Shown here: in pieces, positions 15,043 through 18,699 of the stretch | Position numbering within the stretch: position 1 is the first letter of the stretch | How the letters are laid out: each line of letters begins with the position of its first letter | Source of the DNA: Microbacterium hatanonis | GTDB taxonomy: Bacteria > Actinomycetota > Actinomycetes > Actinomycetales > Microbacteriaceae | Direction of reading: 5' to 3' | Assembly (NCBI RefSeq): GCF_008017415.1 | Contig: NZ_VRSV01000002.1 | Span: 372,001 to 436,000, forward strand | Length of the DNA: 64,000 bases | Program-made: the position numbers and the translations under genes | The notes under the pieces: generated by a model | What the model saw: the letters and a program-made list of their open reading frames with translations, nothing else | Databases searched by the model: none | Told to the model about the DNA's origin: nothing

Positions 15043-16386
15043 ATGACCAACGACACCACCGCCACCGAGCCCGCAGCGCCGTCTGGCCTCAAGCGGGCAG
15101 TCGGCACCCCGTTGCTGTTCGCGTTCATCGTCGGAGACACGCTCGGCGCGGGCATCTACACCCTCGTCGGTTCCATGGCCGGTGATGTCGGCGGAGTCAT
15201 CTGGCTTCCGCTGGTCGTCGCGCTGATCATCGCCCTGCTCACGGCGGGCACCTACGCCGAGCTCATCACGAAGTACCCGCACGCGGGCGGTGCGGCGCGC
15301 TACGCCGATCGGGCGTTCGGGGTGCCGTACGTGTCGTTCCTCGTTGGCTTCCTCATGATGGCCTCGGGCATCACGACTGCCGCCGCGCTGGCGAACGCGT
15401 TCGCCGGCGACTACCTCGCCGCGATCATCGACGTGCCTGCGGCACCGACGGCCGTGGTGTTCATCATCCTGCTGACGCTGATCAACCTCCGCGGCGTCCG
15501 CGAATCTCTCGGCGCCAACCTCATCGCGTCGGTGATCGAGGTGTCGGGCCTCGTCATCGTCATCGTCCTGGCCGCCGTCTTCATCGGTGGTGGAGGAGGC
15601 GACCCGGCTCGCCTCCTCGAGTTCTCGCCCGACAAGGCGCCCGTGGAGGGCGTGTTCGCGGCATCCATCATCGCGTTCTTCTCCTTCCTCGGATTCGAGG
15701 CGGCCGCGAACATGGCCGAAGAGGTGAAGAACCCCTCCAAGGCCTACCCGCGCGCCCTGTTCGGCGCGATCGGCACCGCTGCGATCGTCTACCTGCTGAT
15801 CGCACTCGGCGCGGCGATGATCCTCCCCGCCGCCGACCTGGCGTCCTCGACCGGACCCCTCCTCGACGTGGTGGCCGCGACCGGCATCGCGCTGCCCCCG
15901 TGGCTGTTCGGACTCATCGCGCTCGTCGCGATCGCCAACGGCGCGCTGCTGTTCATGGTGATGGCCAGCCGTGTCGGGTACGGCCTGGCCGAATCCGGTC
16001 TGCTCCCGAAGGCGTTCTCGCGCGTGCTCCCGAACCGTCGCACCCCGTGGGTGTCGATCGTGGTCGTCGCCGTGGCGACGATCGGCCTCACCTTCCTGGG
16101 CGATGTCGCGACGTTGGCCGAGACGACGGTGCTGCTGCTCCTGCTGGTCTTCCTCTCGGCGAACGTCAGCGTGCTCGTGCTCAAGAAGGACAAGGTCGAC
16201 CACAAGCACTTCTCGGTACCGCGGGTCGTGCCGGTGCTCGCCATCATCGCGAGCATCGTGCTGCTCACCCAGCAGACCGGCGTGGTGTGGCTCGGAGCCC
16301 TGGCGTACATCGCGATCGGTTCGGTGCTCTTCTTCGTCGCCCGCGCCGGGCGCAAGCGCGAAGAGCGCAAGGCCGACGCCGGCTGA
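15043..16386 (+). CDS. APC-superfamily amino-acid permease
   Basis: This is a 447-residue integral membrane transporter with about twelve helices. The first helix contains FIVGDTLGAGIYTLVGSMAG, the helix-breaking glycine motif used by APC permeases to bind substrate backbones, and helix 6 contains FFSFLGFEAAANMAEEVKNP, the second hallmark. It is most likely a proton-coupled amino-acid importer; the exact amino acid cannot be read from sequence. The C-terminal tail is short and strongly basic. Confidence 0.9.
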   Translation: MTNDTTATEPAAPSGLKRAVGTPLLFAFIVGDTLGAGIYTLVGSMAGDVGGVIWLPLVVALIIALLTAGTYAELITKYPHAGGAARYADRAFGVPYVSFLVGFLMMASGITTAAALANAFAGDYLAAIIDVPAAPTAVVFIILLTLINLRGVRESLGANLIASVIEVSGLVIVIVLAAVFIGGGGGDPARLLEFSPDKAPVEGVFAASIIAFFSFLGFEAAANMAEEVKNPSKAYPRALFGAIGTAAIVYLLIALGAAMILPAADLASSTGPLLDVVAATGIALPPWLFGLIALVAIANGALLFMVMASRVGYGLAESGLLPKAFSRVLPNRRTPWVSIVVVAVATIGLTFLGDVATLAETTVLLLLLVFLSANVSVLVLKKDKVDHKHFSVPRVVPVLAIIASIVLLTQQTGVVWLGALAYIAIGSVLFFVARAGRKREERKADAG

Positions 16387-16404
16387 GGCGGATGCGGCGC
16401 GGCG

Positions 16405-16755
16405 TCAGGCGCCCGGATCCTTCCCGGCATCACCACGTTGCGCGGGGACGAGTTTGAGCCCGACGACGGCGACGGCGATGCCCGCGATGAAGATCGCTCT
16501 GCCCCAGGACAGCGGCTCCTCGCCGGTGACGGTCGCCCACCCCACGGTGAGCACCGCACCGATGCCGACCCACACGGCGTAGGCCGTGCCGATGGGGATG
16601 CGCTCCGAGGCTTTCGCGAGCCCGATCATGCTGGCGACGAGCGCGACGACGAACACGATCGTCGGGAGCGGCTGCGTGAAGCCTTCGGATCGGCCGAGGG
16701 CCGTGGCCCACACGGCTTCGAGGACGGCGCTGGCGATGAGGATCGACCACGCCAT
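16405..16755 (-). CDS. SMR-family transporter, second subunit of a pair
   Basis: This is a 116-residue, four-helix small multidrug resistance protein. It keeps the essential membrane Glu of helix 1 (VLEAVWATALG) and the GTAYAVWVGIGA signature characteristic of the SugE/Gdx guanidinium-exporter branch. The start lies one base after the stop of the upstream SMR gene, so the two are translationally coupled and probably form a heterodimer. The C-terminus is extended compared with its partner. Both lie behind a guanidine-III riboswitch. Confidence 0.92.
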   Translation of the reverse strand: MAWSILIASAVLEAVWATALGRSEGFTQPLPTIVFVVALVASMIGLAKASERIPIGTAYAVWVGIGAVLTVGWATVTGEEPLSWGRAIFIAGIAVAVVGLKLVPAQRGDAGKDPGA

Positions 16756-16756
16756 C

Positions 16757-17071
16757 TCAGCTCACCGCCTTCAGGCCGATGACCGACGCGACCAGCAGGA
16801 GGATGAGCAGGATGCGCGCGGTCGAGGCGCGCTCCTTCCTGGTCACGATGGCCCAGAGCACGGTGAGACTGGCCCCGATTCCGACCCAGACGGCGTAGGC
16901 GGTACCGGTGGGCAGGTCGTTCATCGCGAACGCGAGCCCCACCATGCTGATGACGAGCGCGACGACGAACAGGATCGTCGGCCGGGGCCGACGGAAGCCC
17001 TTCGACGCGGCCAGCGCCGACGCCCACACCGCCTCGAGAACACCGGAGGCGACCAGAATGATCCACGACAT
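16757..17071 (-). CDS. SMR-family transporter, first subunit of a pair
   Basis: This is a 104-residue, four-helix SMR protein starting MSWIILVASGVLEAVWASAL; the Glu in VLEAVWA is the proton/substrate-coupling residue. GTAYAVWVGIGA again points to the guanidinium-exporter (Gdx) branch rather than the polyaromatic drug branch. A GGAAGG ribosome binding site (17078-17083) directly follows a guanidine-III riboswitch aptamer, so expression should rise with guanidine. Paired SMR genes commonly make asymmetric dimers. Confidence 0.93.
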   Translation of the reverse strand: MSWIILVASGVLEAVWASALAASKGFRRPRPTILFVVALVISMVGLAFAMNDLPTGTAYAVWVGIGASLTVLWAIVTRKERASTARILLILLLVASVIGLKAVS

Positions 17072-17083
17072 GACGAACCTTCC

Positions 17084-17125
17084 GAGTCAGTCTTGTCGCT
17101 CAGCGGGTACTGCTCCCTCGTCCGC
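17084..17125 (-). ncRNA. Guanidine-III (ykkC-III) riboswitch aptamer
   Basis: Read on the minus strand, the 42 bases contain the three invariant blocks of this class in order: CGGACGAGG, GUACCCG and GACAAGAC. The first stem is GCGG with CCGC; the second pairs GAGCA with UGACUC, with one bulged A. The second stem runs directly into the ribosome binding site of the first SMR gene, suggesting control of translation by ligand-stabilised folding. The match is to the published class as I remember it (for example the Thermobifida fusca aptamer). Confidence 0.9.
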
Positions 17126-17212
17126 GCCCGCCATCGGGTCGCCTCGAGGCTATCGAGCAGACCTGGGCACTCCCGGTGCAGGGGGCGGATGCTGCGCCCG
17201 ACCGGCCCAACG

Positions 17213-17218
17213 TAGAAT
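17213..17218 (+). promoter_or_regulatory. -10 box for a leaderless transcript
   Basis: TAGAAT lies five bases upstream of the GTG at 17224. This spacing puts the transcription start at or next to the start codon, and no ribosome binding site is present. Confidence 0.55.
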
Positions 17219-17223
17219 CTCGT

Positions 17224-18699
17224 GTGCCCTCCGATGCCCCTGACGACCGCCAGCCGAGCGGAATCGACCCCGCCGAACTCGCGGTGACGCTCGATGTGCT
17301 CGCGCGGATGGCCCGGATCGATCAGACGCACCCCGACTTCATCCAGGTGCGTCGGGCCACGGCCCACATGTTCAAGGCGGTCAAGAAAGAGCGTCGGCGC
17401 GAGATCCGCGAAGCGATCGCCGAGGCCGACCGCAGCGTGATCGCCGCGACCGCCACCGGGGCACCCGATCGCATCGACGACGAGACCCGCGGCATCCCGA
17501 TCAGCACCGCGACCACGGCCCCGACCGCGGGAACCCTGCTCAAGGCCCGCGGATGCTACATCTGCAAGCAGCCGTACACGCTGGTCGACGCCTTCTACCA
17601 CCAGCTGTGCCCCGACTGCGCGGCGATGAGTCACGCCAAGCGCGACGCCCGCACCGACCTCACCGGGCGACGGGCGCTGCTCACCGGCGGCCGGGCGAAG
17701 ATCGGCATGTACATCGCGCTGCGACTGCTCCGCGACGGTGCGCACACCACCATCACCACCCGGTTCCCGCGCGATGCGGTGCGGCGGTTCAGCAGCCTCC
17801 CCGACTCGGGCGACTGGCTCCACCGTCTCAAGATCGTCGGCATCGACCTCCGCGACCCCGCTCAGGTGATCGGACTCGCCGACGACGTCGCCGCATCCGG
17901 CACCCTCGACATCCTCATCAACAACGCCACCCAGACGGTGCGCCGTTCGACCGGCGCCTACCAGCCGCTCGTCGACGCCGAGCTCGCACCGCTCCCCGAC
18001 GGACCGCTGCCCGAGCTGGTCACGTTCGGGCACACCAACGACCAGCACCCGCAGGCCCTCGAGCGCTCCGTCGCTGCGCACCCCGTGCTCGCCGCCGCGG
18101 CCTCGCGGGCCGACGAGCTCACCGAGCAGGCCATGGCGGCAGGATCCAGCTCGCTCGAACGGCTCGCGGCGGGCACCGCGATCGATGCCGGCGGCCTCGT
18201 GCCCGACCTGCACGACGTCAACTCGTGGACCCAGCGCGTCGACGAGGTCGACCCGCTCGAGATGCTCGAGGTGCAGCTCGCCAACACCACGGCCCCGTTC
18301 CTGTTGATCTCGAAGCTGCGCGCGTCGATGGCGGCGAGCCCCGCGGCCCGCACCTACATCGTCAACGTCAGCGCCATGGAGGGCGTGTTCGGCCGCGGCT
18401 ACAAGGGCCCCGGCCACCCGCACACCAACATGGCCAAGGCCGCCGTGAACATGCTCACCCGCACGAGCGCGCGCGAGATGTTCGAGACCGACGGCATCCT
18501 CATGACGAGCGTCGACACCGGGTGGATCACCGACGAGCGACCCCACCCGACCAAGGTGCGGCTCGCCGAGGAGGGTTTCCACGCCCCGCTCGACCTCGTC
18601 GACGGTGCTGCGCGGGTCTACGACCCGATCGTGCGCGGTGAAGCCGGCGAAGACCTCTTCGGCGTCTTCCTCAAGGACTACGCGCCCGGCTCGTGGTGA
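17224..18699 (+). CDS. SDR-like oxidoreductase fused to an N-terminal zinc-motif domain
   Basis: The 491-residue protein starts at GTG 17224 just after a leaderless-type -10 box. An N-terminal helical part is followed by a CxxC-x14-CxxC cluster (Cys111, 114, 129, 132) likely to bind zinc. From about residue 140 comes a short-chain dehydrogenase Rossmann domain with LTGGRAKIG and DILINNATQ, plus a roughly 90-residue insertion. The usual catalytic Y-x3-K reads T-N-M-A-K here, so the tyrosine appears replaced. A tiny gene overlaps its stop. Substrate is unknown; it may not be a classical dehydrogenase. Confidence 0.8.
   Translation: MPSDAPDDRQPSGIDPAELAVTLDVLARMARIDQTHPDFIQVRRATAHMFKAVKKERRREIREAIAEADRSVIAATATGAPDRIDDETRGIPISTATTAPTAGTLLKARGCYICKQPYTLVDAFYHQLCPDCAAMSHAKRDARTDLTGRRALLTGGRAKIGMYIALRLLRDGAHTTITTRFPRDAVRRFSSLPDSGDWLHRLKIVGIDLRDPAQVIGLADDVAASGTLDILINNATQTVRRSTGAYQPLVDAELAPLPDGPLPELVTFGHTNDQHPQALERSVAAHPVLAAAASRADELTEQAMAAGSSSLERLAAGTAIDAGGLVPDLHDVNSWTQRVDEVDPLEMLEVQLANTTAPFLLISKLRASMAASPAARTYIVNVSAMEGVFGRGYKGPGHPHTNMAKAAVNMLTRTSAREMFETDGILMTSVDTGWITDERPHPTKVRLAEEGFHAPLDLVDGAARVYDPIVRGEAGEDLFGVFLKDYAPGSW

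Follow-up and report, generated by a model that had tools for sequence, protein, structure and literature searches.

A guanidine-III riboswitch before a paired Gdx-type SMR operon in Microbacterium hatanonis: a predicted translational ON switch over a probable two-part guanidinium exporter

Guanidine is a waste compound, and the locus described here raises the question of whether two adjacent SMR genes behind a guanidine sensor encode a single exporter for it, and how that sensor would govern their expression. We examined the locus within a window of 64,000 nucleotides of Microbacterium hatanonis DNA (the window being this whole stretch), and computed the aptamer, its pairing and covariation, an alternative hairpin, the Gdx residues of the two proteins and their charge bias. 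We consider it highly likely that the locus is a guanidine-III translational ON switch over an operon for a fixed, antiparallel, heterodimeric Gdx-type guanidinium/H+ antiporter. The features of the locus are as follows.

17162..17180, minus strand: 11-bp direct repeat TGCACC..TGCCCA at the expected -35 place, with no evident -35 hexamer
17147..17152, minus strand: -10-like box TAGCCT (TANNNT is conserved in genus leaders)
17081..17143, minus strand: guanidine-III riboswitch aptamer RF01763, full model 1-67, 43.8 bits
17125-17112, minus strand: block GCGGACGAGGGAGC, which includes CGGACGAGG
17122..17125, minus strand: P1 5' strand GCGG (pseudoknot), pairing with CCGC 17106-17103; outer pair G-C
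17109..17115, minus strand: P2 5' strand GAGCAGU, pairing with ACUG-A-CUC 17091-17084, one A bulged
17110-17104, minus strand: block GTACCCG, read in the sequence
17090..17097, minus strand: block GACAAGAC, all eight letters invariant in 34 aligned aptamers; 5' arm of the predicted anti-start hairpin
17091-17084, minus strand: P2 3' strand ACTGACTC, directly abutting the Shine-Dalgarno-like GGAAGG
17078..17083, minus strand: Shine-Dalgarno-like GGAAGG straight after the P2 3' strand, read in the sequence
17065..17099, minus strand: predicted anti-start hairpin of the unbound state, -13.4 kcal/mol in the leader folds
16757..17071, minus strand: SMR gene A, Gdx type, 104 aa; PF00893 81.2 bits; charge bias -6
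16405..16755, minus strand: SMR gene B, Gdx type, 116 aa; PF00893 66.5 bits; charge bias +4

The presence of a guanidine-III riboswitch before the SMR pair is confirmed. The initial annotation had read the three conserved blocks of the class, with matching stems, on the minus strand in the 42 bases before the first gene, and had proposed a covariance-model search in which a score below threshold would count against it. All three blocks were located between 17125 and 17090, both P1 and P2 form, and the second stem does abut the ribosome binding site, as its 3' strand ends at 17084 and GGAAGG begins at 17083; the core aptamer is indeed 42 nt long (17125-17084), but it ends 12 nt before the start codon. 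Rfam cmscan of the whole window returned guanidine-III as its sole gathering-level match, at 43.8 bits against a gathering cut-off of 36 (E = 7.8e-6), and the full match adds a 5' hairpin and reaches 17143, 18 nt past the right edge of the initial annotation. The locus thus combines a score above gathering, the P1 pseudoknot, P2 and the conserved core with a position 5' of a guanidine-related gene. Within the organism's own genome (3.5 Mb, 2 contigs) the guanidine-III model has one match and the guanidine-I and guanidine-II models have none; 9 nt separate the end of the aptamer match from gene A, and no SMR gene besides A and B was found in the genome.

Every P1 and P2 pair forms in the window aptamer. 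This holds for the outer three of P2 as well, pairs that do not form in 15, 22 and 11 of 34 relatives. These 34 aptamers, hand-chosen out of 111 distinct pattern-caught ones, made up the covariation alignment, in which P1 is paired in 100%. Paired cells amounted to 87.2% vs 77.6% in shuffles and the covariation score to 0.210 vs 0.075, with 0 of 500 shuffles as high in either case, although relatedness among the aptamers inflates this shuffle test; at slid registers the score was 0.012-0.093, everywhere below 0.1. Both sides change in the outer P1 pair and in a single inner pair of P2, and among the same 34 aptamers neither double changes (3 pairs vs 3.6 shuffled) nor further pair types (6 vs 8.4 shuffled) were more numerous than in the shuffles.

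Of the 98 genus leaders with an SMR gene, 77 contain the exact core strings and 21, whose strings differ, were set aside; each of the 77 has TANNNT upstream of the aptamer, 29-35 nt ahead of GGACGA, and in the window it is at -29. From the position of its TAGCCT box we infer a transcript start near 17141-17138, about at the start of the aptamer. Two TGC-rich copies (TGCnCnG, TGCnCAG) 11 bp apart stand upstream of the -10-like box in 68 single-gene leaders, and this direct repeat, weaker in nine pair leaders, is a candidate for some regulator's site or a promoter type. A strict scan of 16300-17500 gave no classical sigma-70 promoter, and no intrinsic terminator was found in the same interval.

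The leader was folded freely at four lengths. Unbound, it folds so that the last two Shine-Dalgarno bases, the spacer and the start codon's U and G are base-paired to the GACAAGAC block together with some of the P2 3' strand, an anti-start pairing that is weaker in the 121-nt version. It is this pairing with the start-codon region that leads us to predict a translational ON switch, and since the first four of the six Shine-Dalgarno bases stay open in the free fold, the start codon would be the block's target. When P2 was imposed and the P1 strands were kept single to give a bound-like fold, five of the six Shine-Dalgarno bases were open at 0.97 or more; openness of the start codon went from 1.0 to 0.32 for its A and from at most 0.02 to 0.63 and 0.68 for its U and G, so that in the model access to the start codon is improved, if only partially. 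Pairing of the block with the ribosome binding site reached 6.94 in the window leader vs 1.93 in shuffles. The 142 distinct SMR-gene leaders compared, which are related and hence do not make 142 independent tests, averaged 5.04 pairs vs 1.23 in shuffles of the binding-site region. In 99 of the 142, at most 1 of 20 shuffles reached the value. It lay above the shuffle mean in 120; the 22 others include seven pair leaders (L116, L127, L156, L170, L174, L192, L198), leaving 26 of 33 pair leaders above the mean, L114 by a small margin.

We therefore propose the following course, in which the riboswitch of the window would bind guanidine and control expression. When guanidine is lacking, the start-codon region would be hidden by pairing with the GACAAGAC block and with some of the P2 3' strand; with guanidinium bound, the bases of this block and strand would be held in the P1/P2 pseudoknot, the anti-start hairpin would be blocked and the ribosome could start. 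A and B would then be translated together across the 1-nt gap between them, would insert in opposite orientations because of their opposite charge bias, and would form a site to which each contributes one E13, guanidinium leaving through it in exchange for protons. An unlikely alternative, which keeps the same riboswitch and exporter, is that control acts mainly through mRNA stability, the bound pseudoknot blocking RNase E, and not through access to the start codon. Passages of a 2025 review (PMC12186494) describe guanidine-III as controlling both RNA stability and translation, with RNase E scanning prevented, and the start codon is only partly open in our bound-like fold, which would suit this alternative; but most of the 142 leaders have more anti-start pairing than their shuffles, a feature that would be unneeded for stability control alone. 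The two modes are in any case compatible, and we retain start-codon access as the preferred reading.

As for the proteins, the PF00893 scores of A and B stand against a cut-off of 23.7 bits, and the only two matches to this family in the 3.5-Mb genome are the pair itself. Gene A starts with the ATG at 17071, and B follows in TGAGATG (the stop of A, then the start of B); both presumably share one transcript. Gdx-Clo is the best PDB match of both (A, 6wk5, 4.9e-21; B, 8.8e-19), its residues E13, W16, S42, Y59 and W62 are kept in A and B, and the Gdx string GTAYAVWVGIGA given in the initial annotation is present in both. The NCBIfam SugE equivalog NF008512, which is still the best match for both, was not reached at its cut-off of 126 (97.7 for A, 69.3 for B), and the proteins are therefore not filed as SugE equivalogs, and the name Gdx is given by residues instead, the roles of the substrate-site residues being described in passages of PMC9574504. 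A and B are identical at 63 of 104 positions. Charge bias was calculated by the formula of the same paper with our own loop borders in Gdx-Clo numbering, and B stays at +2 when its C-terminal tail is removed; adjacent genes and opposite Arg/Lys bias are marks of paired SMRs, and A and B have both.

How such pairs differ from single genes was read from two collections. In the genus, guanidine-III occurs in 100 of 149 Microbacterium genomes with 102 matches (two below cut-off), and the surrounding 2-3 kb of these 102 loci hold a single SMR gene in 89 cases, a pair in nine and no SMR gene in four, two of the last being the sub-threshold matches; of 103 genus genomes with a Gdx match, 97 also have guanidine-III. 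A scan of named genomes with protein A yielded, as the best 80 loci by likeness to A and hence a non-random selection, 41 pairs and 39 singles; the guanidine-III core was caught by pattern at 24 of these pairs and 33 of these singles, and for the remaining 17 pairs Rfam gave no guanidine match above its threshold. Together with 15 genus pairs and L043, a pair from another family of the order, the named pairs make 57, one genome being counted twice. E13, W16, S42, Y59 and W62 are invariant in the 57 A, the 57 B and the 39 single proteins. At position 10, all 39 singles and, among the pairs, 56 of 57 A have G10, and 54 of 57 B have A10; because single Gdx proteins have G10, the substrate range of the pair could differ.

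This A10 makes the pocket of B differ from that of single Gdx proteins, and parts of PMC9574504 report paired SMRs in all subtypes; both points would fit a polyspecific Qac-like drug exporter that lies behind a guanidine sensor by chance. We regard this as very unlikely, because both A and B have W16, a residue conserved in Gdx and replaced by Gly or Ala in Qac (passages of PMC7695847), and because five genus SMR proteins classed as Qac-like have I10 and A16 and form a separate branch (100/96). A and B very probably make up a guanidinium exporter of two parts, as judged from their sequences.

In all 57 pairs the biases are opposite, A at -1 to -7 and B at +1 to +11, whereas the 39 single-gene relatives are near 0, with a value of exactly 0 in 35. 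Within the genus alone, the 15 pairs span -4 to -7 for A and +2 to +11 for B, and 87 of 89 singles have a bias of 0. The consulted parts of PMC9574504 likewise give opposite bias in more than 95% of adjacent SMR pairs, centred near +4 and -4, and about 20% of Gdx as encoded in adjacent pairs. In a genus tree of 91 rows, with 31 of the 89 genus singles, the 15 genus A proteins form one clade (100/100) and 16 B proteins, including that of L043, another (100/96); separate A and B clades in the genus suggest that the two have long been kept together. These results favour the heterodimer claimed in the initial annotation over A and B as independent dual-topology homodimers, one a backup copy. The latter would agree with the complete substrate site in each protein and with the single SMR gene at most genus guanidine-III loci, but it is hardly probable given opposite bias in every pair, near-zero bias in singles and the two distinct clades. 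One genus genome (G022) has both a single Gdx (L122) and a paired Gdx (L127), each with its own guanidine-III riboswitch.

Two further ideas about the history of the pair were dropped. A single duplication behind all pairs is not borne out by the tree, in which the A protein of L043 lies outside the A clade although its partner lies inside the B clade. Synteny as a sign of an old fixed locus also failed. In the window the pair is flanked by a divergent SDR-like gene and a convergent amino-acid permease gene, and only there do both adjoin it: in the near-twin G140 the permease adjoins the pair and the SDR relative is 13 kb away, and in 13 other pair genomes searched neither was found beside the pair. 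The SDR-like protein (17176-18699, plus strand, divergent from the operon) has 507 aa and a Cys-rich N-terminal stretch; strong relatives occur in 13 of 22 genus genomes searched, its own included, and not beside the pair elsewhere.

The aptamer itself differs between pairs and singles. Among the 111 distinct aptamers the outer P1 pair is CG in 87, GC in 21, GU in two and AA in one, and, sorted by what follows the aptamer, G-C or G-U occurs before 21 of 26 pairs, before none of 81 single genes and in two of the four aptamers without an SMR gene; that the form with an outer G-C pair marks paired exporters is a new observation. The least probable reading of all, an unresponsive relic, could point to the low score of the window aptamer for its genus (90 of 102 matches reach at least 45.2 bits), but the core blocks are intact, all P1 and P2 pairs form and the pair-type outer P1 pair has been kept.

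Independent support for guanidine as the signal came from relatives of the pair. In six of the 15 genus pairs (L133, L134, L135, L136, L140 and L141) no guanidine-III was found. Three carry guanidine-II just before gene A (L134 38.4, L135 41.8 and L136 41.7 bits; cut-off 32), and two unrelated guanidine aptamers over orthologous pairs argue for the guanidine control that the initial annotation had predicted, as far as sequence comparison can tell. Orthologous pairs with guanidine-II in place of guanidine-III are a new observation; our literature searches, not aimed at exactly this arrangement, found no title on guanidine-II before paired Gdx. L140 and L141, where no riboswitch was found, have a divergent TetR/BetI-type gene upstream of the pair (Pfam run on L140 only) and, seen by eye, dyad repeats such as CGCACAGTCGTGCG between the two. 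At L133 Rfam gave nothing above threshold, and the pair lies behind a thymidylate-kinase-like frame. The six pairs form one group within the genus (A 100/97, B 97/93), and their neighbours include a thymidylate kinase (L136, Pfam), a luciferase-like gene (L133) and a class II tRNA synthetase (L140), kinds that by eye recur among L133, L134, L136, L140 and L141. In the actinobacteria-wide tree of 57 pairs the guanidine-II rows remain one clade (100/93) and the TetR rows another (100/97), but their joint group falls to 81/65. A replacement of guanidine-III by guanidine-II in place is not borne out by these results, and a move of the pair may have brought the change of sensor with it.

Guanidine-II is found in 35 of the 149 genus genomes, over cut-off in 29: it stands before a PF01699-type gene in 25, 18-70 nt from the aligned start, before the pair in three and near neither in seven (29.1-35.3 bits). 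The places with guanidine-II and this ChaA-like gene are L143, L144, L146, L148-L152 and L154 plus 16 further ones in the genus; the PF01699-type identity comes from Pfam and NCBIfam on L148 and from likeness for the others, and the best NCBIfam match of L148, ChaA, scores 160.7 bits, below its cut-off of 505. At E 1e-20, 32 of 149 genomes have the ChaA-like gene, in one case as a fragment; at E 1e-8, 103 have Gdx, and just two genomes (G087, G133) have both. None of the 25 genomes with a guanidine-II-linked ChaA has a Gdx match (Fisher 4e-16; 1.4e-17 for all ChaA), a test that ignores the shared ancestry of the genomes, some of the 25 being incomplete (G039 44%, G091 68%, G023 83%, G124 88%). 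The leaders of unlinked ChaA genes, the fragment in G094 set aside as the seventh, show sub-threshold guanidine-II in four of six (21.7-27.7 bits), one of them in Gdx-bearing G133. Judged by titles, our literature searches gave nothing to the point on guanidine riboswitches with ChaA or calcium antiporters. The ChaA-like PF01699 antiporter is thus a candidate replacement exporter for Gdx. The wider scheme, one heterodimeric exporter run by guanidine-III, guanidine-II or a TetR-family protein, with a ChaA-like guanidine-II antiporter replacing absent Gdx, we hold tentatively, doubting it slightly more than we believe it.

Guanidine-III was also seen in other surroundings. Two matches on the minus strand (L125:1336-1400 in G077, 43.7 bits; L126:1400-1465 in G127, 43.2 bits) have no SMR gene in the stretch read; the next long open frame is a cytochrome b gene (PF13631, PF00033; L126 tested), divergent from guanidine-II and ChaA. 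Their outer P1 pair is G-C, otherwise found only before paired exporters, and they may be remnants of a lost pair. In L034, L045 and L046 (family f6) guanidine-III precedes an arginase-family gene (PF00491, L045 tested), perhaps a guanidine hydrolase, and in L039 and L057 it lies 15-17 nt before a small membrane protein, with PF06695 'small multi-drug export' in L039.

The window adds a well-supported instance of a guanidine-III switch over a heterodimeric guanidinium exporter, and the comparison with relatives makes further points testable, among them a conserved start-codon hairpin as the other half of the switch and an aptamer form that goes with paired exporters. Relatives of the pair also indicate that an unrelated sensor can serve in its stead. 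The genus offers a natural series of single gene, pair and pair with another sensor in which to study how dual-topology transporters become fixed heterodimers. The ChaA-like antiporter as a stand-in for Gdx is open to test; if true, the ChaA branch would be a new guanidinium/H+ antiporter unrelated to SMR, and guanidine detoxification in Microbacterium would be put together from exchangeable parts.

Much of the general arrangement is already in print: SMR genes preceded by guanidine-III have been described, chiefly from Actinobacteria, and so have paired Gdx (parts of PMC2864571, PMC12186494 and PMC9574504), and passages of PMC2864571 place ykkC-III before emrE and speB genes in Actinobacteria and delta-Proteobacteria. 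The window shares with guanidine-III (ykkC-III, RF01763) the conserved blocks, the P1/P2 pseudoknot, the SMR gene downstream and the actinobacterial host; it differs in its outer P1 pair, G-C where C-G is commoner, in P2 with GAGCAGU and a bulged A, and in a 63-nt match to the 67-nt model. Guanidine-II (mini-ykkC, RF01068) has the same ligand and precedes the orthologous pair in three other Microbacterium genomes, but it is an unrelated aptamer of two hairpins. Compared with Gdx-Clo, A is identical at 46 and B at 41 of 104 positions, position by position, and the substrate-site residues are kept, whereas Gdx-Clo is one dual-topology gene with G10 and the window has two genes of opposite charge bias with A10 in B. 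With paired SMRs in general it shares adjacent genes of opposite Arg/Lys bias, and it differs from them, in a comparison made within Actinobacteria, in the G10/A10 asymmetry of A and B.
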